Part shown: one piece after another, positions 33,935-49,894 of the stretch | How positions within the stretch are numbered: position 1 is the stretch's first letter | Layout: each line of letters opens with the position of its first letter | From: Achromobacter spanius | GTDB taxonomy: Bacteria > Pseudomonadota > Gammaproteobacteria > Burkholderiales > Burkholderiaceae_B | Length of the DNA: 64,000 bases | Assembly: GCF_002812705.1 (NCBI RefSeq) | Contig: NZ_CP025030.1 | Location: 124,001 to 188,000, forward strand | Direction: 5' to 3' | Translations under genes and position numbers: made by a program | Notes under the pieces: model-generated | Told to the model about the DNA's origin: nothing | What the model saw: only the letters and a program-made list of their open reading frames with translations | The model's database searches: none

Positions 33935-33943
33935 GGTGATGCT

Positions 33944-34006
33944 CCAAAGAAAAATGGGGCATGCACCACCCCCAGCGGGGCAATGGCATGCCCCGTGGTG
34001 GGAAGA
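33944..34006 (-). promoter_or_regulatory. Hairpin leader of the helicase gene (attenuator-like)
   Basis: GGGGCATGC (33956-33964) pairs with GCATGCCCC (33986-33994) around an inner CCCC/GGGG hairpin. On the minus strand the stem is followed by TTTTTCTTT and then GGAG and the ATG. This is an intrinsic-terminator shape placed before the ribosome-binding site. Confidence 0.6.
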
Positions 34007-34070
34007 GAATCGACGCGTGGCTGAGGGTGGTTGAAGGTGCTGGCCTGGGCGGCCCGCAGGTGAACCGTGC

Positions 34071-34376
34071 TCAGTCTTCGGACGGAAGCACGATGACGGT
34101 TGCGCAGCGCTGCGAATCGGTGACGATGCGAATGGCGAGCCCCGGATGGATCACGTAGTGCGATTCCAGCGACGCGCCCGATTGAAGCGCGCTGCTGTTC
34201 GTCTGCCATTGCTGGATGTTGACGTCGCCCCAGTCGCCACGGGTGTGGCGCCTGAAGTACGGGATCGGGTCCAGGCGACCCGCGCGGACCAGGCGGTCTA
34301 CACCTCTGCTGAAGATGAGCGCCCCGATGGGGAACGCCAGCCGCTGGCAGTAGGTTTCGATGCGATGCGATGCCAT
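34071..34376 (-). CDS. Small ICE protein with GDWGD motif, paralogue 1
   Basis: This 101-residue protein is unnamed. Its core RAGRLDPIPYFRRHTRGDWGDVN (about 31-54) is closely repeated in the next gene upstream (34466-34786). The end reads IRIVTDSQRCATVIVLPSED, again like the paralogue. Such GDWG proteins are common single genes on plasmids and ICEs, of unknown function. A good GGAGG precedes the ATG, and a hairpin leader lies upstream. Confidence 0.7.
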   Translation of the reverse strand: MASHRIETYCQRLAFPIGALIFSRGVDRLVRAGRLDPIPYFRRHTRGDWGDVNIQQWQTNSSALQSGASLESHYVIHPGLAIRIVTDSQRCATVIVLPSED

Positions 34377-34379
34377 GGG

Positions 34380-34460
34380 CTCCTCCTTGATGAGTCATTG
34401 AGCCACGACACCCCTGCCGGAGTGAAGTGGCTCCGTCAGGTGGATGAGGATGACGATGTG
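34380..34460 (-). promoter_or_regulatory. Hairpin leader before the GDWGD gene
   Basis: The minus strand reads CTCATCCACC and then a CGGAGCCAC...GTGGCTC fold ending at GGAGG. It shares the TCATCCACC start with the other leaders of this block. Confidence 0.45.
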
Positions 34461-34465
34461 GGGCC

Positions 34466-34786
34466 TCAGATCAGGTCCCGCTCTTCGGGAAGCTGGACCA
34501 CCGTGGTCTGGTGGTCCTCGCTGGTCTTGACGATCAGCGCCAGGTCCGGCGTGATCCTGAACTGCGAGATCATTAGGTTGTCCTGTTGGATCGCCACGTC
34601 GTTGGCTTGGCGTGTGGCCTCATCGATCTCGCCCCAGTCCCCGCGCACATGGCGCTGGACATAGGCCAAGGGGTCGATCAGGCCTCGCCGGGCCAGCCAA
34701 TGCACCTTCTCGCTCAACTTCAACGTACTCGGTGCGAACAACGGTTGCTTGTGCGGCGCAGGCCGCTTGAACGGATTGGGGATCAT
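34466..34786 (-). CDS. Small ICE protein with GDWGE motif, paralogue 2
   Basis: This 106-residue protein is a tandem paralogue of the 34071-34376 product: RRGLIDPLAYVQRHVRGDWGEID at about 49-71, then a C-terminal LALIVKTSEDHQTTVVQLPEE. The start at 34786 has AAGGAG in front; the upstream ATG at 34891 lies inside the methyltransferase gene and was rejected. Two diverged copies side by side suggest an old local duplication, with each copy keeping its own leader. Confidence 0.7.
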   Translation of the reverse strand: MIPNPFKRPAPHKQPLFAPSTLKLSEKVHWLARRGLIDPLAYVQRHVRGDWGEIDEATRQANDVAIQQDNLMISQFRITPDLALIVKTSEDHQTTVVQLPEERDLI

Positions 34787-34799
34787 GGTGTTTCTCCTT

Positions 34800-34842
34800 C
34801 GAGTTGGTACAGCAGGACGGCAGCGCGTCCGGTGGATCAGCG
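34800..34842 (-). promoter_or_regulatory. Short hairpin leader before the GDWGE gene
   Basis: The minus strand reads GATCCACCGGACGCGC and then GCCGTCC, a short GGACG/CGTCC stem, followed by AAGGAG and ATG. It overlaps the end of the upstream methyltransferase gene. Confidence 0.4.
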
Positions 34843-35946
34843 AATGGTCAACACCTCGCCCCGTGTCGCGGAGCCAGGTGTCATGTCCCACGCGCGGATG
34901 ACGGGAACGAACTTGTCGGTGAGGATGCGGGTCTCGGCGATGGAGCCGTCTTCGCGTTCGGTGAACTCCCGCTGGAGCGTCTTGTCCTTGTGGGTGTCAC
35001 CTTTGACGACGAGCACGCGCCCGGTCTTGGAGCGCACAACCCCCGAGATCGCACCCGCGGCCAGAGCCAGGGCGAGATGCCAGCGGGACAAGGCCCGCGC
35101 CGGTGGACGCAGCGATTGCTGCGCAGCCCCCAGGTGCGTGTCCTGCGATGGCCACAAGCCTTGCAGCCTGCCAACCTCATCGGCGAACTGCTCGGGCTCC
35201 ATCGTCACGCGGAAGAAATGCTCTGGCTCGGCCGGGCTGGCGGGGACGATGTACGGCAGGAACGGCCACTCGCTCGGCAGTTCCTCGGCTTCGACTTCGC
35301 CTTGCCCTACCTGCAACAGCAGATTGCGCACGGCCTTGACGCCATCGGGCACCTGCTCGCGCTGGCGCACCCGGCGTCCGAAGATCACCACCTGCTTGAA
35401 CTGCGTCTCCACCGCTCGGTAGATGCGCAGGTCCGTGTAGTGGCGCGTCAGCCAGCCGACCAACTCCGCGTCGAGCACGTAGCCGGGGACGATGAAAACC
35501 AGCACGCCGCCGTATTGCAGCAGCGAGAGCGTGCGCTGGTAGAACAGCTTTTCAAGGCGGGCACGGCCCTGGCCCTGATAGCCGATGTTGCCGTTGACGT
35601 CCTTGGACAGGTCCCCATACGGCGGGTTGAGCCAGAGCAGCCCGAAGGACTGCTTGGAGACCATCGTGTCCATCAGGTCCGCGTGCAGGCAGTGATCGAC
35701 CAGGCCGCGGGCATGGCGCGCCCGCTCCGCGTCGAACTCGACGGCGAACGCCTTTGCCTGCTCGCGCCCGAGGGCATGGGCGGCTTCGGCGATCGCCACG
35801 CCTTCGCCGGCGCAGGGATCGAGGATGCACATCGGCCCGTCGCTGGGCATCAGTGCGTTGAGCGCTCTTTCGAGCGTGGGTTCGTCGGTCGGGAAATATC
35901 CGTTCTTGACGAAATTGCGGGCGAGCCGCGGGAACATGAGGGCCAT
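34837..35946 (-). CDS. DUF6094-type adenine methyltransferase-like protein
   Basis: This 369-residue protein looks like a SAM-dependent N6-adenine methyltransferase. It has motif I DPCAGEGVAIAEA at about 43-55 and the catalytic LLWLNPPYGD at about 103-112, with FKQVVIFGRRVRQ later. It corresponds to the DUF6094 proteins of ICEs. It could methylate the ICE DNA to evade restriction. No restriction enzyme gene is adjacent. The start at 35946 has AGGAG just before it. Confidence 0.75.
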   Translation of the reverse strand: MALMFPRLARNFVKNGYFPTDEPTLERALNALMPSDGPMCILDPCAGEGVAIAEAAHALGREQAKAFAVEFDAERARHARGLVDHCLHADLMDTMVSKQSFGLLWLNPPYGDLSKDVNGNIGYQGQGRARLEKLFYQRTLSLLQYGGVLVFIVPGYVLDAELVGWLTRHYTDLRIYRAVETQFKQVVIFGRRVRQREQVPDGVKAVRNLLLQVGQGEVEAEELPSEWPFLPYIVPASPAEPEHFFRVTMEPEQFADEVGRLQGLWPSQDTHLGAAQQSLRPPARALSRWHLALALAAGAISGVVRSKTGRVLVVKGDTHKDKTLQREFTEREDGSIAETRILTDKFVPVIRAWDMTPGSATRGEVLTIR

Positions 35947-35954
35947 GGAAGTCT

Positions 35955-36008
35955 CCTGGTTGGCGGGGATGAAACACGGAAGTACGCCAAGGCGTGCCTC
36001 CGAGGGTG
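35955..36008 (-). promoter_or_regulatory. Hairpin leader before the methyltransferase-like gene
   Basis: The minus strand starts TTGACCCACCCTCGGAGG and contains ACGCC...GGCGT, then GGCGGGG-type pairing before AGGAG. It is a weaker member of the leader family. Confidence 0.4.
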
Positions 36009-36010
36009 GG

Positions 36011-36658
36011 TCAAGCCGCTACCGCTTCCGGCGTCCAAATCTTGGCCGGATACGGATAGGCGGTGAGCGCGTCGCTGCGGATCAGGGAGCCGAGCGCCAG
36101 GGTCAGCGCCGGCACGTCGATGGCGAGCCGATGGCCTTCCAGCGGCCCGAGGGCGAACGGAAGGCGGGCCAGCATCTCGCGGGTTTGCAGCAGTTCCAGC
36201 ACGGTCTCGCGCCAGTGATCGAGCAGCGGCAACGGGCAGGTGTCCCGCACCAGCATCCACAGGCGGTCAAGCCTGTGGGCGCTGTCGCGTGGCAGCAGTG
36301 CCAATGCGCTGGCGTTGGCCTTGTCGGGCTTGACGCAGCGCCGGTCGAACAGCCACACGTTGGACAGCGAGCCGAACAGCGTCCGCCGGTACGCGCGCGT
36401 GATGCGCTTTTCCAGGCGATCGACGTTGCCGATGAATACCGGGACGCTGCCGCCCTGGTCGGTGATGACGTGGAACTGGTCCAGTCCCTGCTCGTCGCGC
36501 CCGAGGGTCAGGCGAGCGAGGAACTGCTGGACGGCGGTGTCCCGCGCCCAGATGGACAGGAAGATCAGGTTGCCCTGGTCATCGCCGACGCAGGCGTCGG
36601 CCATCACGTCCGGGCATTCGTCGATGCGGTACAGCGTGGAAGAAGTGTTTGCGGGCAT
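36011..36658 (-). CDS. Conserved ICE hypothetical protein
   Basis: This 215-residue soluble protein is not recognised. It has no signal peptide or membrane segment. A mixed alpha/beta look (DQGNLIFLSIWARDTAVQQF, FHVITDQGGSVPVFIGNV) and basic patches are all that can be seen. It lies between the methyltransferase gene and a small acidic protein, each with its own leader. Confidence 0.65.
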   Translation of the reverse strand: MPANTSSTLYRIDECPDVMADACVGDDQGNLIFLSIWARDTAVQQFLARLTLGRDEQGLDQFHVITDQGGSVPVFIGNVDRLEKRITRAYRRTLFGSLSNVWLFDRRCVKPDKANASALALLPRDSAHRLDRLWMLVRDTCPLPLLDHWRETVLELLQTREMLARLPFALGPLEGHRLAIDVPALTLALGSLIRSDALTAYPYPAKIWTPEAVAA

Positions 36659-36667
36659 GGTGGTGTC

Positions 36668-36735
36668 CTCGGATGAACGGGAACAGCACCGCCCGCTGGG
36701 GCAAGTACTGCCCCAGGGGGTGGAAGAAAACCGCT
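36668..36735 (-). promoter_or_regulatory. Hairpin leader before 36011-36658
   Basis: TGGGGCA (36697-36703) and TGCCCCA (36709-36715) form a perfect seven-pair stem with a five-base loop, enclosed by CCACC...GGCGGTG. On the transcript it starts CTTCCACC and ends before GAGGACACC-ATG. Confidence 0.6.
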
Positions 36736-36995
36736 CAGTCCGGCTCGAACTGCCGGGTGTGCGGGTTGAAGTGAAGCGGCTCGTCCGCCGAAGTGATCGG
36801 CGTGAAGCCTTCCAGGTAGATGTTGTTGAGGTACTGGTCGCGGTAGGTCAGTGCCTGCCGTGCCTGGTCCTCGGTGAGGCCGTTGTCGATGAAGTACGCC
36901 AGCATTTCCTCGTCGGAGGACACTTCGTCGTTGGACAAACTCCCTTCAACGAGTGCCAGCAACGAGGGCGGAAGCGTTGCCAGGATCGGGTCCAT
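36735..36995 (-). CDS. Small acidic ICE protein
   Basis: This 86-residue acidic protein (SNDEVSSDEEMLAYFIDNGLTEDQARQAL) is unknown. AGGAGG precedes the ATG at 36995. It is 16 bp from the upstream gene 37012-37419 and probably forms an operon with it. Size and charge would suit a DNA-mimic or regulatory protein, but there is no direct evidence. Confidence 0.6.
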   Translation of the reverse strand: MDPILATLPPSLLALVEGSLSNDEVSSDEEMLAYFIDNGLTEDQARQALTYRDQYLNNIYLEGFTPITSADEPLHFNPHTRQFEPD

Positions 36996-37011
36996 GTCGG
37001 TTCCTCCTGGC

Positions 37012-37419
37012 TCAGGCCATCGACGCCGCGGCGGATGCCGCGGATGCCGTGGGTGTGCGCCGCCGGGCGTGGTAGGCGCGAACGCCTGCACGCCAGTCGG
37101 CGGACTGCTCCGGTGCGAGGTCCAGATAGGACAGCGGGCACGTGTAGTAGTACGGGTGCATGGACTCGTCCAAGGACTTGTAGCCCCACTGGCCGCCGCT
37201 TCGTTCAAGCAGATCGCAGCGGATGTAGCGCAGGGACTGGCCCGGTGCGAGATCACGATGCACGCCTTCGACCTTGGCGGTCACTTCGGCGACGGACCAC
37301 AGCACGTTGCCGCGCAGGGTGTGAGCGATGACCTTGACGCTGGCGCGCTCGGTCTCTTGCGGTGCGATCAGTTCCGCGATCAGTTCGGACCGCGATTGGT
37401 TTGAGAAATACCAGCCCAT
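37012..37419 (-). CDS. DUF6927-like ICE protein
   Basis: This 135-residue protein begins MGWYFSNQSRSELIAEL, a start I associate with DUF6927 proteins, and continues with a mixed alpha/beta core (VLWSVAEVTAK, RYIRCDLLERSGGQWGYKSLDESMHPYYYTCPLSYLD). It ends in a low-complexity Ala/Ser tail. The longer ORF back to 37527 was cut because GAGG and the family-like start fall at 37419. Function unknown. Confidence 0.65.
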   Translation of the reverse strand: MGWYFSNQSRSELIAELIAPQETERASVKVIAHTLRGNVLWSVAEVTAKVEGVHRDLAPGQSLRYIRCDLLERSGGQWGYKSLDESMHPYYYTCPLSYLDLAPEQSADWRAGVRAYHARRRTPTASAASAAASMA

Positions 37420-37427
37420 GAGAGGCC

Positions 37428-37503
37428 TCCTCGAAAAGTTGAGCTGAAGGCCTCCCCGTGGGGAAGAACCCCCAGCGGGTGATGGAATGCCGCATCTGCG
37501 GCG
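37428..37503 (-). promoter_or_regulatory. Two-hairpin leader before 37012-37419
   Basis: The transcript has GCCGCA/TGCGGC (37488-37501), then TCCATCACCCGC and a GGGG...CCCC hairpin, then CGGGGAGGCC and GAGGAGG. It closely resembles the leader of the next gene upstream (37885-37955). Confidence 0.6.
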
Positions 37504-37523
37504 AAGGAACCTATGCGTCGCCC

Positions 37524-37865
37524 TCAATCCCAGTCGTCATCGTCTCGATCACAACCGGCCGGGCAGTAGCCGAACTCGATCCCGTGCGAGCAATAGCCAT
37601 GCTCCGCATTCCAGTCCTGGGTTTCCTGCCGTTCGGCAGGTGTTGCGTAGTCCCATTCCTGGGCCGCGATTTCGAGAGCCTGAGCACGTTGCTCATCCGG
37701 CAAACGATTGGCCTGTGCGTCGATCGCCGAACTGAAGAGCGTCACGTAGTGGTCGTAGGACAAGCCGCAACCGCGCTGGGCGTGTGCGGCGGCCGCTTTG
37801 CAAAGGTCCCGCCACGCGGGTTCATCCAGCGTTGAACGCGGGGTATCGCAAGCGATGGTGGACAT
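37524..37865 (-). CDS. Small Cys/Asp-rich ICE protein
   Basis: This 113-residue protein has a helical N-terminal part and an unusual end (GYCSHGIEFGYCPAGCDRDDDDWD) with three cysteines and six closely spaced aspartates, so it may bind a metal. It is not recognised. The ATG at 37865 follows GGAGG. A two-hairpin leader lies directly upstream. Confidence 0.65.
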   Translation of the reverse strand: MSTIACDTPRSTLDEPAWRDLCKAAAAHAQRGCGLSYDHYVTLFSSAIDAQANRLPDEQRAQALEIAAQEWDYATPAERQETQDWNAEHGYCSHGIEFGYCPAGCDRDDDDWD

Positions 37866-37884
37866 GATGGAGACCTCCAGAAAA

Positions 37885-37955
37885 TGGCCAGGGCCTCCCC
37901 CGCATGGGAAAGGAACCCCGGCGGGTGGATGAAGAACACCGCGCATGCGGCGTCT
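37885..37955 (-). promoter_or_regulatory. Two-hairpin leader before 37524-37865
   Basis: GCCGC...GCGGT is followed by TTCATCCACCCGCC, then CGGGGTTCC...CCCATGCGGGGGAGGCC. Except for the loops it matches the leader at 37428-37503, with paired differences in the stems. Confidence 0.6.
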
Positions 37956-37959
37956 GCGA

Positions 37960-38649
37960 TCACGCAGGTTTTGGTTCGGCCTGGCGGCTCCACTCCTGCG
38001 TCTTGAAGTCCAGCGCGTAGCCCAGCTCGCCCAGGCGGGCGATCTGCGCGCGCAGGGTGCGGCGGTCGATGGTCGAATCCAGTTTCACGGACTCGCCCAG
38101 CGGCCACAGCAGGCCGAAGAGCGCGGCGTCACCGTCTTCGGTGCTGCCGGGGGCAGCGGCCGTAGCAGGCGGTGGCGCATCCACGCCGAAGGGCGTGGTA
38201 TCGACCAGCGGGTCCGCGGACGCCTGCACGGGTGCGGGCTTGGCGGGCCTGGACGCTTTGGTGGGCTTGGCCGGCGTTGCCGCAGGCTGCGCCCCTTGCT
38301 CTTCATCGAGCGGATCGACGTCCTGGGTGGCGAAGCTGCGGGCTTCGTCGCGGCTGAGTTTGTCGATGCCGTTGAGCGTCATGCCGTCGAGGCTGGCACG
38401 GATCTCGAACCGCATGCCGCCGCCGACCGGATAGGACTTCGGGAAGATGTACCTGATGATGAATTCCCCGTCGTACTTGCCTTCGGGGTACTGCTCCAGC
38501 TCCGGGTCTTTGACCTCGAAAGTACCGAGGTGCGTCGCGAGGCGGCCAACCGTGAACGGGCCGTTCTTGCCGCGGATGGTACGCAGCGTGAGCTGGCCGG
38601 GGACGACGATGGGCGCAACAGATTTCTCGGAAGCCGATGGGGTTGCCAT
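37960..38649 (-). CDS. DUF3275 family ICE protein
   Basis: This 229-residue protein fits DUF3275. The N-terminal domain (about 15-105) contains TVGRLATHLGTFEVKDPELEQY and YDGEFIIRYIFPKSY. A Pro/Ala/Lys linker (about 115-165) leads to a small C-terminal helical domain. The family is restricted to ICEs of this type and has no known activity. It is preceded by a leader with an eight-pair hairpin. Confidence 0.75.
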   Translation of the reverse strand: MATPSASEKSVAPIVVPGQLTLRTIRGKNGPFTVGRLATHLGTFEVKDPELEQYPEGKYDGEFIIRYIFPKSYPVGGGMRFEIRASLDGMTLNGIDKLSRDEARSFATQDVDPLDEEQGAQPAATPAKPTKASRPAKPAPVQASADPLVDTTPFGVDAPPPATAAAPGSTEDGDAALFGLLWPLGESVKLDSTIDRRTLRAQIARLGELGYALDFKTQEWSRQAEPKPA

Positions 38650-38662
38650 GATGGTTCTCCTG

Positions 38663-38740
38663 ATGATGAATGACGGGCCGCCGACGGCACCCGGTGGATG
38701 AGAGGAAATGGCCTCGCCCGAGGTGGGCGAGGTCCGCGTG
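38663..38740 (-). promoter_or_regulatory. Hairpin leader before DUF3275
   Basis: CCTCGCCC/GGGCGAGG form an eight-pair stem first, followed by CTCTCATCCACCGGGTGCC and GGCGGCCCG. The order is hairpin, TCATCCACC, second hairpin, ribosome-binding site, as in other leaders. Confidence 0.6.
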
Positions 38741-38743
38741 GCA

Positions 38744-39571: not shown

Positions 39572-39584
39572 GGCTGATCTCCTT

Positions 39585-39700
39585 TGAGAAATTCGACAAC
39601 CGCGTGGCCGTGAGACCACGCGGAACTCGGGGGATGAAATGCGCAAGCACGCGTCCTGGGGACGCGGCGTACGTGGGGAGGAAAAGCGACAAGGCCCCGT
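39585..39700 (-). promoter_or_regulatory. Hairpin leader before DUF932
   Basis: CCGCGTGG (39600-39607) pairs with CCACGCGG (39616-39623), preceded on the transcript by TTTCATCCCCCGAG and by an upstream CGCGTCC...GGACGCG stem (39650-39665 region). AAGGAG and ATG follow. Confidence 0.6.
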
Positions 39701-39716
39701 GAGAGGCCGTGCCGGA

Positions 39717-40622
39717 TCAGAACGAAGCAGCCAATGCCGGCTCCTGCTCCTGGACTTGCGCCTCGGGCTCGCGCTCGGCGGGCTCGGTGGCCGTGTCGAT
39801 GGCATCGTCGGCTTCGGACGCGGATGCGTCTTCGGCCGGCGGCGCCTCGGCTTGCGCCTGGCTCGTCGGATAGACCTGGGTGCCGTCGATCTTGATGAGA
39901 CCGATGTGGACCAGCGTCGATTCCAGGCTGGCGGCCGGTTCCCCGGCGTGCTCACCCTTGGTGCGGATGTACGGATCGATCTTCATGTCGTTCAGACGGA
40001 AGGCGATCAGCACCTTGCGGTCACCCTCGACGGCCTGAACGCACCGGCGAACCAGGTGCTCGGCTTCCGGGGTGGCGACGATGGTGTCGAAGTACCGATA
40101 CTCCGGTTCATCGACAGGCCCGGCCAGTGCCGCGACGGTGCAAGAGAGGAACGAGTCGCCAGCTTTTGGGGTGACGTCCTTCACACGATTGAGATAGCCG
40201 ATGCCGCGGGTGATCAACTCGTGCTGCTCGATCGAAGCCAGTTCGGCCCGGTCGATCAGTTCGGCCTTGAGCAGTCGCGCCTTGAGGGACGCGGCGGCCT
40301 GACCCTTCTGCTCACCCTTGTCGCGGATGTACACATCGCCCCACAGGTCACCGAGGCGAAAGCGCACCAGCGGGCGCTGCTTGGGATCGTCAACGCCGAT
40401 GTAGCGCTGAACGAGCTTCTTGGCCTCGGCACCCGAGACCTTGACGTCGAAGTAGCGGTAGCTGGGGTCCCGGGCGGGGCCGACCAGCGCGGCGATGGTG
40501 CATGCCAGGAAAGGCTGCGCACGGCGGCCGCCCCGGACGGGCACTTCACGGACACGCTGGATGTAGCCGATGCCCGAGGTGTGGAGGTCGAAATACGATT
40601 TCTCGTTGGACGTGGTGTTCAT
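39717..40622 (-). CDS. STY4534 family ICE replication protein (DUF3577)
   Basis: This 301-residue protein contains two similar halves. Each has a GIGYxxRVxxV start (about 15 and 165), an FLxCTxAALxGPxxxPxYRYFD core and a DxxIRxKGEHAG/QKG segment, so it looks like an internal duplication. It matches the STY4534/DUF3577 family, which I recall as associated with ICE replication. The C-terminus is Ala/Glu-rich. Both leader types (hairpin leader and three-hairpin element B) lie upstream. Confidence 0.8.
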   Translation of the reverse strand: MNTTSNEKSYFDLHTSGIGYIQRVREVPVRGGRRAQPFLACTIAALVGPARDPSYRYFDVKVSGAEAKKLVQRYIGVDDPKQRPLVRFRLGDLWGDVYIRDKGEQKGQAAASLKARLLKAELIDRAELASIEQHELITRGIGYLNRVKDVTPKAGDSFLSCTVAALAGPVDEPEYRYFDTIVATPEAEHLVRRCVQAVEGDRKVLIAFRLNDMKIDPYIRTKGEHAGEPAASLESTLVHIGLIKIDGTQVYPTSQAQAEAPPAEDASASEADDAIDTATEPAEREPEAQVQEQEPALAASF

Positions 40623-40635
40623 GGTGAATCTCCAT

Positions 40636-40735
40636 TGGGATGAAGCGGAGACACACCGGCCCACGCATGCGGGGAAGGTGCGTGACCCCGCGGTGGGTTG
40701 ATAAGGCGAAAGCATCCGCCACCAGAGGCTGGTGG
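40636..40735 (-). promoter_or_regulatory. Hairpin leader before STY4534
   Basis: GCGGGG (40669-40674) pairs with CCCCGC (40686-40691) inside CCCACC...GGGCCGGTG. The transcript starts TTATCAACCCACCGCGGGG, a variant of the leader start, and ends before GGAGATTCACC-ATG. Confidence 0.55.
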
Positions 40736-40769
40736 CCGCTCGCGGAAGGATGCGGTGCGAGCTGGCTCG

Positions 40770-40860
40770 GTCACGCAGTGGGAACTGCGCCGCAACCTCG
40801 AAGACCGATGGTTGCCTGGCATGTCGCTGACGACGTCAGCAGGCATGGGGCCAGCATGGC
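40770..40860 (-). ncRNA. Three-hairpin leader element, copy B (upstream of STY4534)
   Basis: Stems are CGCAGT/ACTGCG (40774-40789), GCAACC/GGTTGC (40792-40815) and GCTGAC/GTCAGC (40826-40840). Compared with copy A, the second stem changes two pairs and the first changes C-G to T-A on both sides. The flanking CATGCTGGCCCCATG also recurs near copy C. Confidence 0.65.
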
Positions 40861-40932
40861 GGGGCCTCGCGCGCGCGGCAGCAATCAATCGGCACCCGGG
40901 CGCTTCCCTTTGTCCGCGCCACCCGGCGCCTG

Positions 40933-41383: not shown

Positions 41384-41481
41384 GCGGTTGTCTCCGGTGG
41401 CATGCCGGCGTTGTGGCCGGCGGGGCGTGCCTCGGCGGCTGGAGACAAACGCGCACGCGCGGCGATGGCGGCGGTGCGAAC
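41384..41481 (-). promoter_or_regulatory. GC-rich leader before the XF1762 pseudogene
   Basis: GCCGGC and GCCGGC arms around GTTGTG (about 41405-41422) form a hairpin before GGAGACAACCGC-ATG. It resembles the other leaders in position but lacks the TCATCCACC start. Confidence 0.35.
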
Positions 41482-41507
41482 AAAAGAAGGCCCCCGATGC
41501 GGGGGCT
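41482..41507 (-). terminator. Rho-independent terminator of the DUF3085 gene
   Basis: GCCCCCG (41490-41496) and CGGGGGC (41500-41506) form a stem with a three-base loop; on the minus strand a CTTCTTTTG tail follows. It lies 18 bp after the DUF3085 stop codon. Confidence 0.75.
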
Positions 41508-41524
41508 GCGAGGCGGTTGCCGCG

Positions 41525-41821
41525 TCAGGCGGGAGGCACCACTGCTAAGGACAGGTGCGTGGCGGTGGCGGAAAGCACGAGATCGTCCGCCGAGTGCTGG
41601 AGGCGCGTGAACAGGCCGTCCTTCGGGTCGAAATACTCCGCGAAGTCATCGCCGCCCAGCTCGCGGCCGGCGAGGTGCCACCAGTCATCGAACGGGTCGG
41701 TGTCCGGGTTGCATCCGACGGCGTAGGCGAGCAGTGCCTGGCGCCCATCCGGGCGACGCTCCCCACGCTCGGCGAGGAAGTACACGCCCTGATCCTTGAC
41801 CAGGACAATGCGGCACTGATT
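41525..41821 (-). pseudogene. DUF3085 gene, 3' part, split by transposon
   Basis: This is the C-terminal portion (VYFLAERGERRPDGRQALLA to LSLAVVPPA) of a DUF3085 protein. It is cut off from its start by the mercury transposon. Joining it to 45760-45816 after removing one copy of the 5-bp duplication gives a 354-bp frame, 117 residues, reading MSLRFKGADLRPVLTEAIAN and then CRIVLVKDQGVYFLAERG without a break. Before the insertion the gene was therefore intact. Confidence 0.85.
41817..41821. repeat. Target-site duplication TGATT (left)
   Basis: TGATT directly abuts the left terminal repeat and recurs at 45755-45759 beside the right one, the 5-bp duplication expected of Tn3-family transposition. 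Confidence 0.9.
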
Positions 41822-41859
41822 GGGGACGTCTCAGAAAACGGAAAAAATCGTACGCTAAG
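41822..41859 (+). repeat. Left terminal inverted repeat
   Basis: This 38-bp repeat begins GGGGACGTCTCAGAAAACGG and ends CGTACGCTAAG. It differs from the right end by one substitution (position 5) and one A in the A-run. The tnpA stop codon lies inside it. Confidence 0.92.
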
Positions 41860-42852
41860 CCGGTTGCAGCGGTCGTAGCGGCCTGAACTTGCCCGCGCCG
41901 ATCTTGGCGCTGCTGCGCCAGAGGTAATCGCCGGTCAGGTTGATGTGCTCCCAGCCCAGCGGCGACAGGTACTGCAACAGGGCGTCATCGACAGTCTGGC
42001 CGTGACCGCGTAAGGCGTTTGAGGCCCGTTCCAGATAGACCGTGTTCCACAACACTATGGCCGCCGTCACCAGGTTGAGGCCGCTGGCCCGGTAGCGCTG
42101 CTGCTCGAAACTGCGGTCGCGGATTTCGCCCAGCCGGTTGAAGAACACGGCGCGGGCTAGCGCGTTGCGGGCTTCGCCCTTGTTCAGTCCGGCATGCACG
42201 CGGCGGCGCAGCTCGACGCTTTGCAGCCAGTCCAGGATGAACAGCGTTCGCTCGATGCGGCCCAGCTCGCGCAGCGCCACGGCCAGGCCGTTCTGGCGCG
42301 GGTAGCTGCCGAGTTTCCTGAGCATCAGCGAGGCCGTCACCGTGCCCTGCTTGATCGAGGTGGCCAGCCGCACCTTGGCGTTGATCGCCTTGCCGGACGC
42401 CTGGAACTGCTGCTGATGCTTGTGCTTGGCAGCGTTGAACAGCTTGCCCAGGATGCGGTCGTGCAGGTCGATGATTTCGTCGGTGACGGTGGCCATGCCC
42501 TCGATGGCGAGCGCACCAGGGTCGCGTAGCGGCGCTGTGCCTCGAACTTGGCCAGATCGGCGGGCGTCATCTGGCCGCCTTCGCGGGCGATCTTGAGCAG
42601 GCGGTTCTGGTGCACCGACCGCTCGATGCCGGAAGGCAGGTCGAGCGCCTGCCAGGCTTTGAGGCGCTCGATGTGTTCGAGTATGTGGCGCGAGTTCGGC
42701 TTGACGGGCGACTGGCGCAGCCAGGCCAGCCAGGTCGTCTTGCCGTTGTCGTGGCGCTTGAGCAGATCGTCGAGGCGGTGCCGGTGGGTGGCCGACAGGG
42801 GATCGGACAAGGCCGCGTAGATGCGGCGGTTGGCGCGGCTGTAGGCGTTCAT
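41855..42852 (-). pseudogene. tnpA: Tn3-family transposase tnpA, internally deleted and frameshifted
   Basis: Only the two ends of a transposase normally close to 988 residues remain. The N-terminal part ([19 protein letters not shown] onward) is in one frame down to RRYATLV at about 42515. There a single G appears to be missing (GTGCGCTC where GTGGCGCTC would continue LALAIEGMA). The other frame then runs [18 protein letters not shown] to AINAKVRL, where it jumps at about 42368 straight to [16 protein letters not shown], the family's C-terminal region. The span is 998 bp, one short of 333 codons. The DDE catalytic core is absent. Confidence 0.85.
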
Positions 42853-42870
42853 CGAACACCTCCCTTTTCC

Positions 42871-44857
<1,987 letters not shown>

Positions 44858-44869
44858 GGTGATCTCCTT

Positions 44870-45220
44870 TCAGTAGAACAGCGGCAGGACGTAGGGAAAC
44901 GCGAGGGCAACCAGAACCAGGGCGGCCACGATCCAGAAGATCACCTTGTAGGCAGTCCGCACTTGGGGCACGGCGCAAACGTCGCCGGGCTTGCAGGCAT
45001 GGGCTGGTCGGAAGATGCTGCGCCAGGCGAAGAACAGCGCGATGAGCGCTGCGCCGATGAAGATCGGCCGATACGGCTCCAGCACGGTCAGGTTGCCGAT
45101 CCACGCGCCAGAGAAGCCGAGCGCGACCAGGACAAGGGGGCCGAGGCAGCAGGCCGAGGCGAGGACGGCCGCGACGCCGCCGGTCGCCAGTGCGCCGCAG
45201 CCGTTCTTGGGTTCCGACAT
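44870..45220 (-). CDS. merT: Mercuric ion transport protein
   Basis: This 116-residue inner-membrane protein has three membrane segments, with the Cys pair ACCLGPL in the first and PAHACKPGDVCAV in the loop between the second and third. The start at 45220 (MSEPKNGCGAL) is chosen because AAGGAG precedes it; the ATG at 45274 would lie across the promoter. Confidence 0.95.
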   Translation of the reverse strand: MSEPKNGCGALATGGVAAVLASACCLGPLVLVALGFSGAWIGNLTVLEPYRPIFIGAALIALFFAWRSIFRPAHACKPGDVCAVPQVRTAYKVIFWIVAALVLVALAFPYVLPLFY

Positions 45221-45255
45221 AAGGTTCTCCTTCCGGGACTTCGCTTGATGCTGTA

Positions 45256-45286
45256 ACGTTACTTCCGTAGTCAACTACGGAGTCAA
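45256..45286 (-). promoter_or_regulatory. mer promoter-operator (PmerT / merO)
   Basis: On the minus strand TTGACT (45281-45286), a 19-bp spacer and TAACGT (45256-45261) form the classical overlong MerR promoter. The spacer holds the dyad CCGTAGTTGACTACGG. MerR bound here represses without Hg2+ and untwists the DNA to activate when Hg2+ is bound. Confidence 0.93.
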
Positions 45287-45291
45287 GCGCC

Positions 45292-45699
45292 ATGGAGAAC
45301 GCTCAAGAGAATCTGACCATCGGGGCCTTCGCCAAGGCAGCCCGGGTCAACGTGGAGACGATCCGCTTCTATCAGCTCAAGGGCTTGCTACCCCAGCCGG
45401 AGCGGCCCTACGGTCGCATCCGCCGCTACGGGCAGGCGGACGTGGCGCGGGTGAAGTTCGTGAAGTCAGCCCAGCGCCTGGGATTCAGCCTGGATGAAGT
45501 CGGCCAGCTCCTGAAACTGGAGGACGGCACCCATTGCAGCGAGGCGGCCGAACTGGCTGCTCACCGGCTGGCCGATGTGCGCGCACGCATGGCGGACCTC
45601 ACGCGGATGGAAGAGGCCCTGTCGACGCTAGTGAGAGAGTGCAACGCGCACCATGGCAATGTTTCCTGCCCGTTGATCGCAGCTTTGCATTGCTGCTAA
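45292..45699 (+). CDS. merR: Mercury-responsive regulator MerR
   Basis: This 135-residue regulator has the N-terminal HTH ([22 protein letters not shown]) and the three Hg2+ ligands Cys82, Cys117 and Cys126 at canonical positions. It is divergent from merTPA and overlaps the shared operator region. It ends 16 bp before the right terminal repeat. Confidence 0.96.
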
Positions 45700-45715
45700 A
45701 GGGCCCACTTCGGCT

Positions 45716-45754
45716 CTTAGCGTACGATTTTTTTCCGTTTTCTGAGACGACCCC
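45716..45754 (-). repeat. Right terminal inverted repeat
   Basis: This 39-bp repeat is the reverse complement of the left end apart from one substitution and one extra A. It is followed directly by the second TGATT. Confidence 0.92.
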
Positions 45755-45816
45755 TGATTGGCGATGGCTTCGGTCAGCACGGGGCGCAGGTCAGCGCCTT
45801 TGAATCGCAGTGACAT
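45755..45816 (-). pseudogene. DUF3085 gene, 5' part, split by transposon
   Basis: Codons for MSLRFKGADLRPVLTEAIAN lie here with AGGAG upstream; 45755-45759 is the second TGATT. Translation now runs into the transposon end and stops soon after. See the 3' part at 41525-41821 for the rejoined frame. Confidence 0.85.
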
Positions 45817-45905
45817 GGATGAAATCTCCTGTGTGGAAGAATGAGAAAGGCCTCCATCCGATGGGATGAAGGGCCTGTAGTGCACGCGGCCGGAACGGCT
45901 GGAAC
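45817..45905 (-). promoter_or_regulatory. Hairpin leader before DUF3085
   Basis: AGGCCCTTCATCCC, a short loop and GGATGGAGGCCTTT form a hairpin before AGGAG. Further upstream (45905-45960) are more pairing segments (ACGGC/GCCGT) that loosely recall the three-hairpin element. Confidence 0.5.
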
Positions 45906-45960
45906 GCCGTGGCGGATGCCTCGGGTCAGCCGCAGGACCGCCCGGTTTCGCTGCGGGGCG

Positions 45961-46785
45961 TCATGCCGGGACGGCCTGGCGCTTGCGGGCCGCTTTCGCG
46001 TCGAGGATGCTCACGTCGATCTGGCGCCAGCGCCCGTCGTCGATGAGCCTCTCCAGCACTTCGCCGAGCATGTCGAAATACACCTCGTCGTGCCGATCGA
46101 CCAGTTCGACCGATTCACCGTTCTGACGGTGCAGTTCCACCACGTAGGTGTCTCCGCCGCGGTCGTAGAGGATCGTCACCCGGCCCTCGAACTTCGCGGT
46201 CGAGACCGTGAAGCTGATCGCCGGCGGGGTCTCGATGATCTTGGAGGGCGTGGGATCGACCCAGGTGAAGTCGCGGGCACCGGCATCCACCAGCATGTGG
46301 GTGATGCGCCGGAAGCGATCGGGGGCCGGCATCTCCTCCAACTGCTCGATGAGCTGGCCCAACTCCATGCACTGCGGCGTGGGAATGGGCAGCTTGGCCG
46401 GCGCCGAGCCGAGGATGTGCCTCGTGATGGTGTACGGCGTGCCGTCCGAAGTCTCCTCGGTGATGACCTCCGGCGTGTCCGCGCGCAGTCCGTCGAAGCG
46501 ACGACGGGCATAGGGTTGGACATGCACCTTGGCGCCTTCGGCAGGAACCGTGGTCACCAGGCTGGGATCGAGCACCGCGAACTCGGAAGGCTTGAGCTTG
46601 ACGACGATGGCATCGTCGGTCGCGGCGACCACCTTGCCGTCGAAGGGTTGGGGGTCGATGGCGAAGCCCAGCGTTGAGGACAGCGGCTGATCATCGAACA
46701 CGCGGTACTTGAACGACCGCACGTTGCGGGGCACATGGCCTGCGACCAGCGAAGGCATCATGGATTTGATGAGGGAACGATCCAT
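45961..46785 (-). CDS. Conserved ICE hypothetical protein
   Basis: This 274-residue soluble protein is not recognised. It starts MDRSLIKSMMPSLVAGHVPRN and has mixed alpha/beta features with a basic C-terminus (AKAARKRQAVPA). The ATG at 46785 has AAGGAG in front; the longer ORF to 47043 crosses the leader. It has both leader types upstream, like STY4534, so it was probably important enough to be tightly controlled. Confidence 0.65.
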   Translation of the reverse strand: MDRSLIKSMMPSLVAGHVPRNVRSFKYRVFDDQPLSSTLGFAIDPQPFDGKVVAATDDAIVVKLKPSEFAVLDPSLVTTVPAEGAKVHVQPYARRRFDGLRADTPEVITEETSDGTPYTITRHILGSAPAKLPIPTPQCMELGQLIEQLEEMPAPDRFRRITHMLVDAGARDFTWVDPTPSKIIETPPAISFTVSTAKFEGRVTILYDRGGDTYVVELHRQNGESVELVDRHDEVYFDMLGEVLERLIDDGRWRQIDVSILDAKAARKRQAVPA

Positions 46786-46796
46786 GGGGAAACTCC

Positions 46797-46862
46797 TTGA
46801 GGAAAAACAAGGGATTCCCCGCCCGCAAGGGAGAGGTCCCTTGTGGGTGGCGTGGATGGACG
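46797..46862 (-). promoter_or_regulatory. Hairpin leader before 45961-46785 (attenuator-like)
   Basis: CAAGGGA (46826-46832) pairs with TCCCTTG (46837-46843), enclosed by CCACCCA...GGGCGGGG. On the transcript the fold starts after GTCCATCCACGCC and ends in AATCCCTTGTTTTTCC before AAGGAG, a stem plus U-run. Confidence 0.6.
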
Positions 46863-46887
46863 CGGTAGGTCCGTAGGAAGAAACGAC

Positions 46888-46975
46888 CAGCACGGTTTCC
46901 CGCGCTTGCAGCCTCGAAGGTCTCGACTGCCTGGGCATGTGCCGGCAACGCCGACGAACATGGGGCAAGCATGGC
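46888..46975 (-). ncRNA. Three-hairpin leader element, copy C
   Basis: Stems are GCACGG/CCGCGC (46890-46905, GAAA tetraloop on the minus strand), GCAG/CTGC (46908-46930) and CGGC/GCCG (46943-46953). Flank CATGCTTGCCCCATG matches copy B. It sits about 105 bp before the 46785 start. Confidence 0.6.
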
Positions 46976-47042
46976 CCTGGGGCGGTCTGCCTGCCCGCAG
47001 GAAACGGCACCGCACCACAACCGTTTTCCTGTGCTGCGGGCA

Positions 47043-47066
47043 AGAAAAAGCCCCTCGAAAGGGGCT
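47043..47066 (-). terminator. Rho-independent terminator after 47074-47352
   Basis: AGCCCCT and AGGGGCT pair across CGAA; on the minus strand TTTTTCTTG follows. It lies 8 bp after the stop of the 47074-47352 gene and separates that gene from leader element C. Confidence 0.85.
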
Positions 47067-47073
47067 GGAGGAA

Positions 47074-47352
47074 TCAGGCTTGGTACACGAAGTAGTGCTC
47101 GCGCTGACGCGGAAAGAACACGTGTTTCCACGTGTCGCCGCTTGTGTTGCCACCGTCGAAGACGACCATTTCGTAGTCGTCCACGTCGGTGTCCACCAGG
47201 TCGGCGCTGGCGATATGGCGCATGTGCAGCGTGCCGCTCATGCGCTCGAATACCAGGATCTGGCCGATGGCATCTTCCTGGCTCATGGCGTTGACGCAGG
47301 CTCCGAGTTGGTGCTCGAAGTCGGATGCGGGTGTGATGAGGTCGGGGAACAT
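47074..47352 (-). CDS. Small ICE hypothetical protein
   Basis: This 92-residue acidic protein (MFPDLITPASDFEHQLGACV to REHYFVYQA) is unknown. It has a mixed alpha/beta pattern and no membrane segment. GGAG precedes the ATG at 47352. It has its own leader and terminator, so it can be a single-gene unit, though the 47450 gene lies just upstream. Confidence 0.65.
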   Translation of the reverse strand: MFPDLITPASDFEHQLGACVNAMSQEDAIGQILVFERMSGTLHMRHIASADLVDTDVDDYEMVVFDGGNTSGDTWKHVFFPRQREHYFVYQA

Positions 47353-47358
47353 GGGATC

Positions 47359-47420
47359 GCTCCTGTGAAAGTGCGCCGGCCCGGCTCTCTGGCGGGAGAC
47401 CGGGCCGGCATGCGGTGAGG
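47359..47420 (-). promoter_or_regulatory. Ten-pair hairpin leader before 47074-47352
   Basis: GCCGGCCCGG (47375-47384) pairs perfectly with CCGGGCCGGC (47400-47409). On the transcript it follows GTCCTCACCGCAT and precedes CAGGAG and the ATG. Confidence 0.6.
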
Positions 47421-47449
47421 ACAAGGAAGGCCGGGGATGTGTGTGGCAG

Positions 47450-48187
47450 CTATTCGCCGGCCAGCGATAGGCCCGGCAACACGGGTGCGTCGGCATCGAG
47501 GATGAGGATGCGCACGTCGGCCTGGCCGGCCAGTTCAAGGATCTGTGCCAGCTCGTCCGGCATGCCCTTGCTGCGGTGCTCCTGCCGAAGCTGCTCGGCG
47601 GCGATCCCCTCGACGTCCTGCAGGTGCTGGTCCGTCCAGGGCGTGGAGATCAGCTTGACGCCGATCGCCGGGCTGTAGGGAATCCGGAACGCGATGAACA
47701 AAAAGGCCTCCGGCGTCGCGAGGTCAGCCAGGTTGGCCAGGTACTGGCCGGTTTCGCGGCTGATGTGCGCGCTGCTGATTTCCCAGCACCGGCTGTAGTA
47801 GCCGGTCTCGAAGCTCAACCGCTGCACGACTTCCCGTGCGGCCTCGGCCGAATAGGTGTCGCCAATGTGGACGGGGCGGCCGTCGAAGTCGTCGCCGTGG
47901 ATCGCGTACACCACGGCACCCACCATGCCTTCGCCGCTGCCCCCTTCAGCCGCGTCGCATTCGGCGATCAGTGCGGCGCCGACAGGTTCGGTGCCAGTCC
48001 TGACCACCGCGAAGTCGCTGGTGATGATGCAAGGAGAAGAAACCAGCGCCGCGTCGCAGAGGTGCTGCTGGCTCGGGTGGATGTTTCGCCAAACATGCGG
48101 GCTTCCGTCCTCGTAGCTGATGGACAGCGTGCGGACGATTTTCAGATTCCAGTAGCCGCGTAGAAAGGGATTGGGATTCTGGGACAT
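47450..48187 (-). CDS. Conserved ICE hypothetical protein
   Basis: This 245-residue acidic protein is not firmly recognised; it may belong with the DUF5983-type ICE proteins. It lacks signal peptide and membrane segments. Features are an N-terminal region with CIITSDFAVVRTG, a central GDTYSAEAAREVVQRLSFETGYYSRCWEI stretch and a C-terminal VRILILDADAPVLPGLSLAG. GGAG precedes the ATG. Confidence 0.6.
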   Translation of the reverse strand: MSQNPNPFLRGYWNLKIVRTLSISYEDGSPHVWRNIHPSQQHLCDAALVSSPCIITSDFAVVRTGTEPVGAALIAECDAAEGGSGEGMVGAVVYAIHGDDFDGRPVHIGDTYSAEAAREVVQRLSFETGYYSRCWEISSAHISRETGQYLANLADLATPEAFLFIAFRIPYSPAIGVKLISTPWTDQHLQDVEGIAAEQLRQEHRSKGMPDELAQILELAGQADVRILILDADAPVLPGLSLAGE

Positions 48188-48197
48188 GGGATTTCTC

Positions 48198-48258
48198 CAA
48201 CAGAATAATGATGGAGCAAATCCCCGCCACCGGGAATTGACCCCGGTGGGTGGAAAGA
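48198..48258 (-). promoter_or_regulatory. Hairpin leader before 47450-48187
   Basis: CCACCGGG (48226-48233) pairs with CCCGGTGG (48241-48248). The transcript runs TTTCCACCCACCGGGG, loop, CCCGGTGGCGGGG and then TTGGAG and ATG. Confidence 0.6.
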
Positions 48259-48270
48259 AAGGAAACAGCG

Positions 48271-48957
48271 TCAGGTGACGCTGATCGTTGGCGTTTGGGC
48301 CAATCGCTCGGCGACGCGCCGGCGCAAATTCATGCGGAATGGCTCGTCGCTGACGCCCGCCAGCAGATTGATGGTCTCCAGCGCGATCAGGGCCGAAGCC
48401 TCTTCGATGTCGGCGGCCACAATGGTCTTGCGCAATTGGTCGCCGAGCTGGAGGGCCTGGGAGGAGGAGCTGATGAAGCGGACCTCGCGGCTCAGGTAGC
48501 AGCCGTTGCCGCCGAACTCGAACAGCCGCGGCTTGCTGCAGTACCAGCAGCCCTCGAACTGGATGGCGGTCAGGTGGTGCCCGTCATCGAACCGGGTGGC
48601 GATCAGAAACAATGCGTCGAGATCGGCGGTGTCCTCGAACGAATGACGGTCGATCAAGTTCCCCAGCTCTTCGTCCTCATCGGCACGGAAGTGCACGGCG
48701 AGCAGTTCGAGCAGCGGCGGGATCGACAGCCCTTCGTCGTCCGGCATCGGAATACCGAGTTGCGTGGCCAGGTCTTCCAGGCCATCGAGCACGTCCGGCC
48801 ATTGCGGATTGGTGGTCTCGGCGATCTGGGCGATGTAGGCCTGCCCGTTGCCGGGGTGGCTCTCGTCCAGCGCGAAGGCGCCGAACAGCGCCTGGATGAC
48901 GGGCGTCACACGGTCGAGCACGAGAACGCCGGTGGCTTCGTAGTAGTTGTTGGCCAT
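48271..48957 (-). CDS. Conserved ICE hypothetical protein
   Basis: This 228-residue acidic protein is unrecognised. The start at 48957 (MANNYYEATGVLVLDRVTPV) has AAGGAG in front. Visible are EDLATQLGIPMPDDEGLSIPP, a CWYC pair near residue 137 (FEGCWYCSKPRLFEF) and a helical end. The CxxC could bind a metal or be redox-active. It has its own leader. Confidence 0.62.
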   Translation of the reverse strand: MANNYYEATGVLVLDRVTPVIQALFGAFALDESHPGNGQAYIAQIAETTNPQWPDVLDGLEDLATQLGIPMPDDEGLSIPPLLELLAVHFRADEDEELGNLIDRHSFEDTADLDALFLIATRFDDGHHLTAIQFEGCWYCSKPRLFEFGGNGCYLSREVRFISSSSQALQLGDQLRKTIVAADIEEASALIALETINLLAGVSDEPFRMNLRRRVAERLAQTPTISVT

Positions 48958-48965
48958 GAAGGCTC

Positions 48966-49026
48966 CTTTCGATGAATGAACGGAGCCAGCCCTTGCGGAC
49001 GATGGCATCCGCAGGGGAAACCGCCT
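48966..49026 (-). promoter_or_regulatory. Hairpin leader before 48271-48957
   Basis: TGCGGA (48994-48999) pairs with TCCGCA (49008-49013), enclosed by CCCCT...AGGGCTGG. It begins ATCAGGCGG rather than TCATCCACC and so is a divergent member. Confidence 0.5.
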
Positions 49027-49139
49027 GATGCCGGATGGCGCTGGGCGGGGAGAAAACGCGAGGGACATGGCCTCGAACGAGGCGCATGTCCCTCATGGGG
49101 TCCCGTGAACGCAGTGATGAAGGTGTGCCAGGGACCGGC

Positions 49140-49532
49140 TCACCAACCGCTGTAGTTCAGCAGCAGGTCGGCGATCACCTGGCGACGTTGCAGATCGAGA
49201 CCATCGAAGTCCGACAGTCCTTGGAAGTGGCAGCGCTTGAGCATGGCACCGCCCTCGCGCGCGTTGTAGAAGCTGAACATGGCGGACAGGAACATGCGTT
49301 CCCCGCTGCTCAGGACGCCGAGTGCGTCGTTGGCACGCAGCATGTCGGGACGCAGATCCCACTTGCTCTTTGCCTGGTTCAGGCCTTCGCGCGTGCCGTC
49401 GCCAAACCATTGCGGGCCTGCGATCTCGACGCCGCGCTTCCAGACCTCGAAGAAGGCTTGGGGCGCGGCGGCGAAATGCTGCTCTTCCCGCATGATCTGA
49501 TCGACGACTTCCTGGGGCAAAAGCTGGTTCAT
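49140..49532 (-). CDS. Small ICE hypothetical protein
   Basis: This 130-residue helical protein (MNQLLPQEVVDQIMREEQHF onward) is unknown. GGAGG lies before the ATG. It starts 21 bp after the stop of the 49554-49766 gene and has no leader of its own, so the two form an operon controlled from the leader at 49776. Confidence 0.65.
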   Translation of the reverse strand: MNQLLPQEVVDQIMREEQHFAAAPQAFFEVWKRGVEIAGPQWFGDGTREGLNQAKSKWDLRPDMLRANDALGVLSSGERMFLSAMFSFYNAREGGAMLKRCHFQGLSDFDGLDLQRRQVIADLLLNYSGW

Positions 49533-49553
49533 GACGTGGTTCCTCCAGTTGGA

Positions 49554-49766
49554 TCAGGGTGTGGCGAGCTGGGACCAGCCGCCTCTTTCGAGGGCACGTT
49601 GAGCCGCGGCATAGCTGCGGAAGTACTGGCAGGATTCCCGCGAAACGGGACCTTCTGTATCGCGCGTGCCGATGTAGTGGCCGGCGGCGCTATGCAGGAT
49701 TTCGAGCGGCAGGAACTTGCCGCAATGGATCAAGGCCAACTGGCCGAAAGAGGCTTGCTGGGACAT
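49554..49766 (-). CDS. Very small ICE hypothetical protein
   Basis: This 70-residue protein (MSQQASFGQLALIHCGKFLP onward) is unknown. AAGGAG precedes the ATG at 49766. It is downstream of the most elaborate leader arrangement in the window: three-hairpin element D plus an attenuator-like hairpin with a five-T run. The longer ORF to 49967 crosses that leader and is not used. Confidence 0.6.
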   Translation of the reverse strand: MSQQASFGQLALIHCGKFLPLEILHSAAGHYIGTRDTEGPVSRESCQYFRSYAAAQRALERGGWSQLATP

Positions 49767-49775
49767 GGACGGGCT

Positions 49776-49842
49776 CCTTGGAAAAAGCGGGGCCTCGTCC
49801 CTCACGGGATGGCAGCTCCCGCACGCGGTTGAGAAAAAAGCA
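49776..49842 (-). promoter_or_regulatory. Attenuator-like leader before 49554-49766
   Basis: On the minus strand TCTCAACCGCGTGCGGGA opens a fold whose outer GCGGG...CCCGC stem is closed immediately before TTTTT, followed by CCAAGGAG and ATG. An inner TCCCGTGAGGGA hairpin lies in the loop. A run of six T precedes the fold as well. Confidence 0.6.
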
Positions 49843-49894
49843 TCGGCGTCACGGGTGACGCGCGTCCGCAGACTCGATGCGATGGCGGACTGGC

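Follow-up and report, generated by a model that had tools for sequence, protein, structure and literature searches.

Earlier work by Ramsey et al. in 2015 reportedly dealt with RNA switches that lie on the gonococcal genetic island. In the sections of PMC8716806 consulted here, the switches preceding traH and parA of this island are built of two stem-loops, the second of which lies over the Shine-Dalgarno (SD) sequence and the start codon. According to the same sections, an alternative single stem-loop frees the traH start, the activator being unknown, while for parA removal of the inner legs leads to a strong rise in protein with unchanged mRNA (PMC8716806). These switches appear to be the closest precedent for the leaders described here, which lie on the minus strand of a 64,000-nucleotide (nt) stretch of Achromobacter spanius DNA (contig NZ_CP025030.1, positions 124,001 to 188,000; "the window" hereafter). 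The 16 leaders are found in a gene block at 33.9-49.8 kb, which is part of an integrative and conjugative element (ICE) with adjoining PFGI-1-class genes (PilL2, TIGR03759) and an STY4534/DUF3577 protein.

An earlier note on this DNA had described related hairpin leaders before many accessory genes of the block, with arms that differ while their pairing is kept. This description is borne out and holds again for other ICEs. An ATG and an SD-like word are present at 16/16 of the starts, and most leaders can be read according to the proposed plan: a 5' tract resembling UUC or CAUCCACC, then a GC-rich hairpin whose arms are unlike, and a 3' flank rich in G. The hairpin of that account (HP-A) stands, but the account was incomplete: the GG-rich flank forms one arm of a second hairpin (HP-B), which covers the ribosome-binding site, and a plan with one hairpin missed the competition of both with a third fold (HP-C). 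Computation shows that the pairings of HP-A, HP-B and HP-C are leader-specific and that C3, the 5' arm of HP-B, is contested by two other segments, the SD region and the SD-like G1, which is the 5' arm of HP-A. The pattern recurs in other ICEs, and host genes are devoid of the SD hairpin.

HP-B was seen in folds of the last 50 nt of each leader plus the AUG. Its 3' arm comprises the SD together with the bases that lead to the AUG, and its 5' arm is usually the GG-rich flank. In leader 48187 (leaders are named after the gene start), GGGAUUU.CUCCA pairs with UGGAGAAAUCCC-AUG; in 46785, GGGGAA.CCCUUG pairs with CAAGGAGUUUCCCC-AUG; and in 40622, GGUG.GUCUCC pairs with GGAGAUUCACC-AUG. HP-B has a probability (P) of at least 0.9 behind HP-A in 12/16 window leaders. 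By itself this probability is a weak measure, an enclosing pair with P>=0.9 being found in 30% of shuffled sequences. When the RNA is folded only up to the SD, many leaders form a single long hairpin, HP-C, by pairing of G1:C3 and C2:G2, while the full leader gives two hairpins.

Alignment-free swap tests were adopted because RNAalifold found no consensus in a MAFFT alignment of 12 different window leaders. In these tests, segments of each leader are paired with segments of every other leader, so that composition is kept. Swapping of the HP-A segments weakens the pairing from -10.7 to -5.6 kcal/mol, a loss of about 5 (permutation p 5e-5), while cutting at a point 50 nt upstream of the SD gives p 0.42. 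With larger pieces, p is 5e-5 for HP-A and for HP-B; for the pairing of C3 to the upstream part of its own leader, it is 1e-4. In an unsupervised map of native versus swapped pairing across the 16 leaders, HP-C is the strongest signal (z -5.9), followed by HP-B (z -4.4) and HP-A (z about -2 to -3.3).

The replication set comprised 177 starts (184 before removal of 7 near-duplicates) of other genomes, at 15 loci located via DUF3275 or DUF3577, and the pairing positions tested in it were fixed beforehand from the 16-leader map. All three pairings are found again (HP-A z -8.6, HP-C z -4.6, HP-B z -7.1), also when swaps are confined to leaders of the same locus (-7.2, -3.4 and -5.6, respectively). 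The corresponding z values are -2.4, -1.8 and -0.1 for 105 host starts; a set of 42 starts of other window genes gives -2.8, -1.6 and -0.1, and control pairings stay within +-1. Ordinary genes therefore have some upstream hairpin and a weak HP-C tendency, without the SD hairpin. Earlier pairing maps agree with the fixed-window result. Maps of single loci vary, the pattern being present in L088, slightly shifted in L090 and weak in L089, and the map of a second DUF3275 region of the same genome (L086, 11 genes) is without a clear pattern.

Competition is also seen in minimum free energy (MFE) folds. At least 5 bases switch partner between the fold up to the SD and the full fold in 7/16 window leaders (shuffled 12%) and 51/177 other ICE starts (shuffled 12.7%), against 17/105 host starts (shuffled 15.9%) and 10/42 other window genes (shuffled 16.7%). 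Loose measures of SD pairing give little or no separation between leaders and controls. A combined score distinguishes window leaders (p 6e-5) and other ICE starts (p 3e-4) from host starts. Under a strict filter, a 4-mer complementary to the SD core occurs upstream of 41/177 ICE starts versus 5/105 host starts, and of only 3/16 window starts. In ICEs, pairing continues past the SD (0.576, against 0.431 when the downstream bases are shuffled; in the host, 0.348 against 0.406).

The earlier note had expected the leaders to persist where the same genes occur in other ICEs, and they are indeed kept by orthologues of 33934, 36658, 37419 and 37865. Among orthologues of 33934, 36658, 38649, 40622 and 35946 at 39-90% protein identity, the hairpin leader is mostly present, with exceptions; in this set the start was not located for 4/44. 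DUF3577 leaders at 39-54% protein identity, inspected by eye, have the full HP-A and HP-B fold in 10/11 distinct cases, with changed arms, and HP-C in 9/11 when folded up to the SD. Several pair types occur at HP-B positions past the SD in 12 DUF3577 leaders, in a register picked for best pairing. An ungapped pair count separates native from swapped DUF3577 leaders only slightly (9.6 versus 8.7; second run 11.0 versus 10.3), because orthologous arms are partly alike.

Covariation in homologues had been put forward as a test. For leader 37419, HP-C is 96% paired in 30 orthologues, with a covariation score above that of 499/500 shuffles; the other counts, and HP-A with HP-B, do not follow it, as set out below. 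For leader 36658, HP-C is, by eye, the RNAalifold consensus of 30 distinct orthologous leaders. A covariance model (R1), trained solely on orthologues of 33934, 36658, 37419 and 37865, has 5 pairs and is mostly a sequence profile. It recovers the held-out leaders 48187 (E-value, E, 0.007) and 46785 (E 0.055) and misses 10/12 held-out leaders. R1 has no match with E<1 outside leaders, the remaining matches at this level being the training leaders and the reverse strands of two of these.

A typical leader would probably be a two-state RNA that governs the access of ribosomes to its gene. In the OFF state, HP-A would form, with C1:G2 outside and G1:C2 inside, and C3, which lies behind HP-A, would pair with the SD and the bases before the AUG to give HP-B. 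In the ON state, G1 would capture C3 to form HP-C, with C2:G2 nested inside, leaving a U-rich tract and the SD single-stranded. Since this plan is the same in kind as that of the gonococcal switches, control of translation, with HP-C as the open form, seems to be the best reading. Two tandem stem-loops stand directly 5' of the gene in 12/16 window leaders and 10/11 DUF3577 leaders elsewhere; the second covers the SD and start region, by prediction and swap test; the predicted HP-C resembles the alternative stem-loop of traH; and both systems reside on a mobile island or element. They differ in that two leaders, those of traH and parA, are described for the gonococcal island, whereas here many genes of one block in PFGI-1-class ICEs are preceded by them. 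Here, as far as folds can be predicted, one design is repeated before many unrelated genes of a block.

Several points weigh against such a switch. The strongest is that the SD region can be opened at a net cost no higher than elsewhere (median 4.2 kcal/mol versus 5.4 in the host and 4.8 in shuffles), which fits a poised switch and also the lack of any switch. All structures are predicted folds of GC-rich RNA. A clear HP-B is missing in 4/16 leaders, and its upkeep in orthologues is uneven, from 32/34 (33934) and 21/22 (40622) down to 3/21 (49766) and 1/19 (45816); the last two and 48187 (4/20) have an HP-B in the window that is rare in orthologues. In the orthologues of 37419, two-sided pair changes in HP-C (336/500 shuffles reach the native count) and the count of cells (33/500) are unremarkable, HP-A with HP-B is 89% paired without excess covariation (306/500), and such shuffles can be beaten by related sequences without structure. 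When the 5' tract is blocked in silico, opening becomes cheaper by over 1 kcal/mol in 8/16 window leaders, an effect that is not replicated elsewhere: the cost is lowered in 22% of the 177 other starts (raised in 28%) and in 19% of host starts. Finally, according to the consulted sections, parA of the gonococcal island gave no sign of an alternative fold, and altering its first stem abolished output (PMC8716806).

One version of translational control by these folds, overlapping with it, requires no ligand. HP-C would form first during transcription and allow early translation, after which HP-A and HP-B would shut the gene off. Metastable folding during transcription is a feature of some type I toxin mRNAs. 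In the leaders the MFE fold up to the SD is often HP-C and the full MFE fold HP-A with HP-B, as this version would have it, but MFE folds carry no information on rates, and we hold it to be a tentative possibility.

The U-rich tract behind HP-C would suit the landing of a ribosome and equally a terminator; therefore attenuation of transcription is a serious rival, if a clearly less likely one. HP-C with the U tract would then be an intrinsic terminator and HP-A the antiterminator, and a fraction of the polymerases would reach each gene of a long operon. The 8 nt after hairpins of the HP-C type hold a mean of 3.47 T in the window, with at least 4 in 9/15, against a mean of 1.09 and 1/80 in the host. 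Between 33.0 and 50.4 kb there are 19 terminator-like patterns versus 10.4 +- 3.2 in shuffled sequence, of which only some 3/19 lie wholly within leaders. In ICEclc, signal drops from 5' to 3' along transcripts, according to the consulted part of PMC2892462. On the other hand, the T tract is weak in many leaders (mean 2.16 in the validation set; at least 5 T in 18/148), attenuation leaves HP-B unexplained, in which C3 is specifically paired to the SD and to the stretch preceding the AUG (z -7.1), and the parA transcript level reported in the sections cited above is unchanged on removal of the stems (PMC8716806).

It is improbable, more so than attenuation, that the hairpins are constitutive intercistronic structures that protect or process a polycistronic mRNA, or insulate each ribosome-binding site, without switching. 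They are stable and intergenic, the SD opening cost is ordinary, and one core transcript of ICEclc is apparently cleaved rapidly, as stated in the same part of PMC2892462; yet such hairpins would have no need of G1:C3 pairing or of a competition for C3. An artefact of GC-rich sequence and SD complementarity is strongly disfavoured, for although loose measures are common by chance (the 30% of shuffles mentioned above, and 71% of host starts, the same as their shuffles, at the loosest cut-off of the combined score), composition is kept in the swaps, the host is negative for HP-B and independent ICEs replicate the pattern.

If the two folds control translation in cells, with HP-C as the ON state, a shared signal, be it a protein, an RNA or the kinetics of folding, might decide which state many of the genes adopt. 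Since the distance to the preceding frame ranges from 50 to 337 nt, translational coupling was discarded as the general trigger. One factor acting in trans may be involved, and short enriched words are its candidate sites. In a set of 133 leaders, 117 of them preselected by score, TCAACC is found 5' of HP-A in 23/133 (1.4 in shuffled sequence; 1/105 in the host), CCACC is also enriched, and TTCATC is enriched in the HP-B loop. It could be imagined, though we consider it rather unlikely, that an ICE-wide translational checkpoint exists: the mRNA of about a dozen establishment or accessory genes would be made and kept silent by the leader of each gene, until one factor flips all of them. This factor would read the single-stranded words UUCAACC/UUCAUCC, which are repeated on the 5' side of HP-A and within the HP-B loop, and release might be tied, for instance, to a defined transfer stage. 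The leaders would double as cassette borders, as recombination midway in two leaders would delete a gene and leave a functional hybrid switch.

Hybrid leaders of this kind do occur. Leader 37419 is hybrid in 10/10 distinct copies from places where the 37865 gene was not found, versus 0/23 where the gene is present; its 5' half is nearer to the 37865 leader and its 3' half nearer to its own. Leaders therefore behave as module borders, and the hybrids point to loss or gain of a gene by recombination inside leaders. They were seen at loci L029, L031, L033, L034, L036, L039, L040, L042, L043 and L080.

In Rfam searches the leaders themselves are without a match. At gathering scores, Rfam finds just four radC RNAs in the window (Table 1), none of which matches a whole leader, and on the minus strand of 28-52 kb radC RNA is the only match up to E 10. 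It occurs in the same ICEs and upstream of some of the same genes, but has another structure, of 149 nt, and three matches stand 5' of leaders without replacing them. Those at 40712 (DUF3577 leader) and 49840 (49766 leader) end 5-8 nt 5' of the leader, while that at 46821 overlaps 33 nt of the 46785 leader, with HP-A within its last 33 nt. The opposite strand over leader 33934 gives a chance-level snoRNA match (E 5.3). DUF3577 and DUF3085 RNA motifs are cis-regulatory leaders before several unrelated genes. In the suggested comparison with these motifs, no Rfam match to them was obtained, either in the block, with hits accepted up to E 10, or, at gathering scores, in 15 diverged loci, the presence of such models in Rfam being unverified. 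As in the expression platform of translational riboswitches, an anti-SD segment pairs with either the SD or an upstream segment, in competition; in contrast, no conserved aptamer core was seen by eye, the arms vary and short words alone recur.

Among the open-licence titles and abstract beginnings listed, no account of such leaders in ICEclc-type elements was found, which is weak evidence of absence. Long core transcripts of ICEclc are described in the available part of PMC2892462. In that of PMC9286271, RNA level and reporter output of the ORF81655 promoter disagree, and its authors suggest post-transcriptional control; this gene is not equated here with genes of the block. The transfer-competence promoters of ICEclc share a 27-bp motif, according to the same part (PMC9286271). 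ICEs of this kind carry catabolic, metal and resistance genes. It may be that a whole set of genes is equipped, each one individually, with one kind of on/off switch. If so, there would be a large set of parallel RNA switches within one mobile element, the same switch logic would have been built repeatedly from different sequences, the leaders would point to where a shared trigger might be sought, and there would be a concrete reason for the expression of block genes to depart from mRNA level.

Table 1. Leaders and radC RNAs in the window. HP-B probabilities (P) are from folds of the last 50 nt plus AUG; orthologue fractions are distinct leaders with HP-B P>=0.9, the window copy counted in.
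Feature	Coordinates	Strand	HP-B	HP-C	Orthologues	Remarks
SNF2/ResIII helicase leader (gene 31655-33934)	33935..34004	-	33934-33968, P 1.0	33956-33994	32/34	
101-amino-acid (aa) gene leader (start 34376)	34377..34447	-	~34374-34407 (50-nt fold), P 0.98	34400-34433	13/20	
106-aa frame leader (start 34786)	34787..34836	-	unclear, P 0.31		1/14	weak; hairpin GGACG/CGUCC; CCACC next to the upstream stop
DUF6094 methyltransferase leader (start 35946)	35947..36009	-	none, P 0.13		1/41	atypical; hairpin present
215-aa gene leader (start 36658)	36659..36726	-	36659-36690		14/26	
135-aa gene leader (start 37419)	37420..37487	-	37422-37454	37443-37476	17/28	
113-aa gene leader (start 37865)	37866..37933	-	37869-37898 (50-nt fold)	37887-37922	12/24	
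DUF3275 leader (start 38649)	38650..38702	-	none predicted in window copy, P 0.35		14/27	short
DUF932 leader (start 39571)	39572..39639	-	39572-39601 (50-nt fold), P 1.0		7/10	HP-A CCGCGUGG/CCACGCGG
DUF3577 (STY4534 family) leader (start 40622)	40623..40703	-	40623-40657	40645-40691	21/22	
39-aa frame, leader-like hairpins (start 45816)	45817..45876	-	not kept in orthologues		1/19	
274-aa gene leader (start 46785)	46786..46853	-	46786-46820	46807-46844	22/24	
92-aa gene leader (start 47352)	47353..47420	-	weak, P 0.78		16/29	divergent; long hairpin GCCGGCCCGG/CCGGGCCGGC
DUF5983 leader (start 48187)	48188..48255	-	48188-48224		4/20	
228-aa gene leader (start 48957)	48958..49022	-	48961-48987		7/8	
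70-aa gene leader (start 49766)	49767..49834	-	49767-49800	49787-49822, then UUUUU	3/21	
radC RNA (RF01754)	9365-9512	-				Rfam gathering score
radC RNA (RF01754)	40712-40857	-				Rfam gathering score; 123.3 bits
radC RNA (RF01754)	46821-46972	-				Rfam gathering score
radC RNA (RF01754)	49840-49980	-				Rfam gathering score

Leaders 34786, 35946, 38649 and 47352 fit the shared plan poorly. An extra GC hairpin of the CGCCGC-N4-GCGGUG type, followed by a U-rich tract, stands between the upstream stop and the leader at ~37934-37960 (37865) and 37488-37524 (37419) on the minus strand.

Most minus-strand genes of the block are without an assigned family, the named ones being the SNF2/ResIII helicase, DUF6094, DUF3275, DUF932, DUF3577 and DUF5983. 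The earlier note had placed genes of both DUF3577 and DUF3085 here; the former is present, while the latter was not found among 19 proteins scanned with Pfam. The DUF3577 protein (39717-40622, minus strand) is a chain of 301 aa with two DUF3577/STY4534 stretches, and some other loci have open frames of ~140 aa. A candidate mercury-resistance (mer) operon, recognized by eye, lies at ~41820-45755 and is flanked by inverted terminal sequences CGTCTCAGAAAACGGAAAAAAATCGTACG. The 39-aa frame at 45816 extends into this candidate insert and appears to be interrupted.

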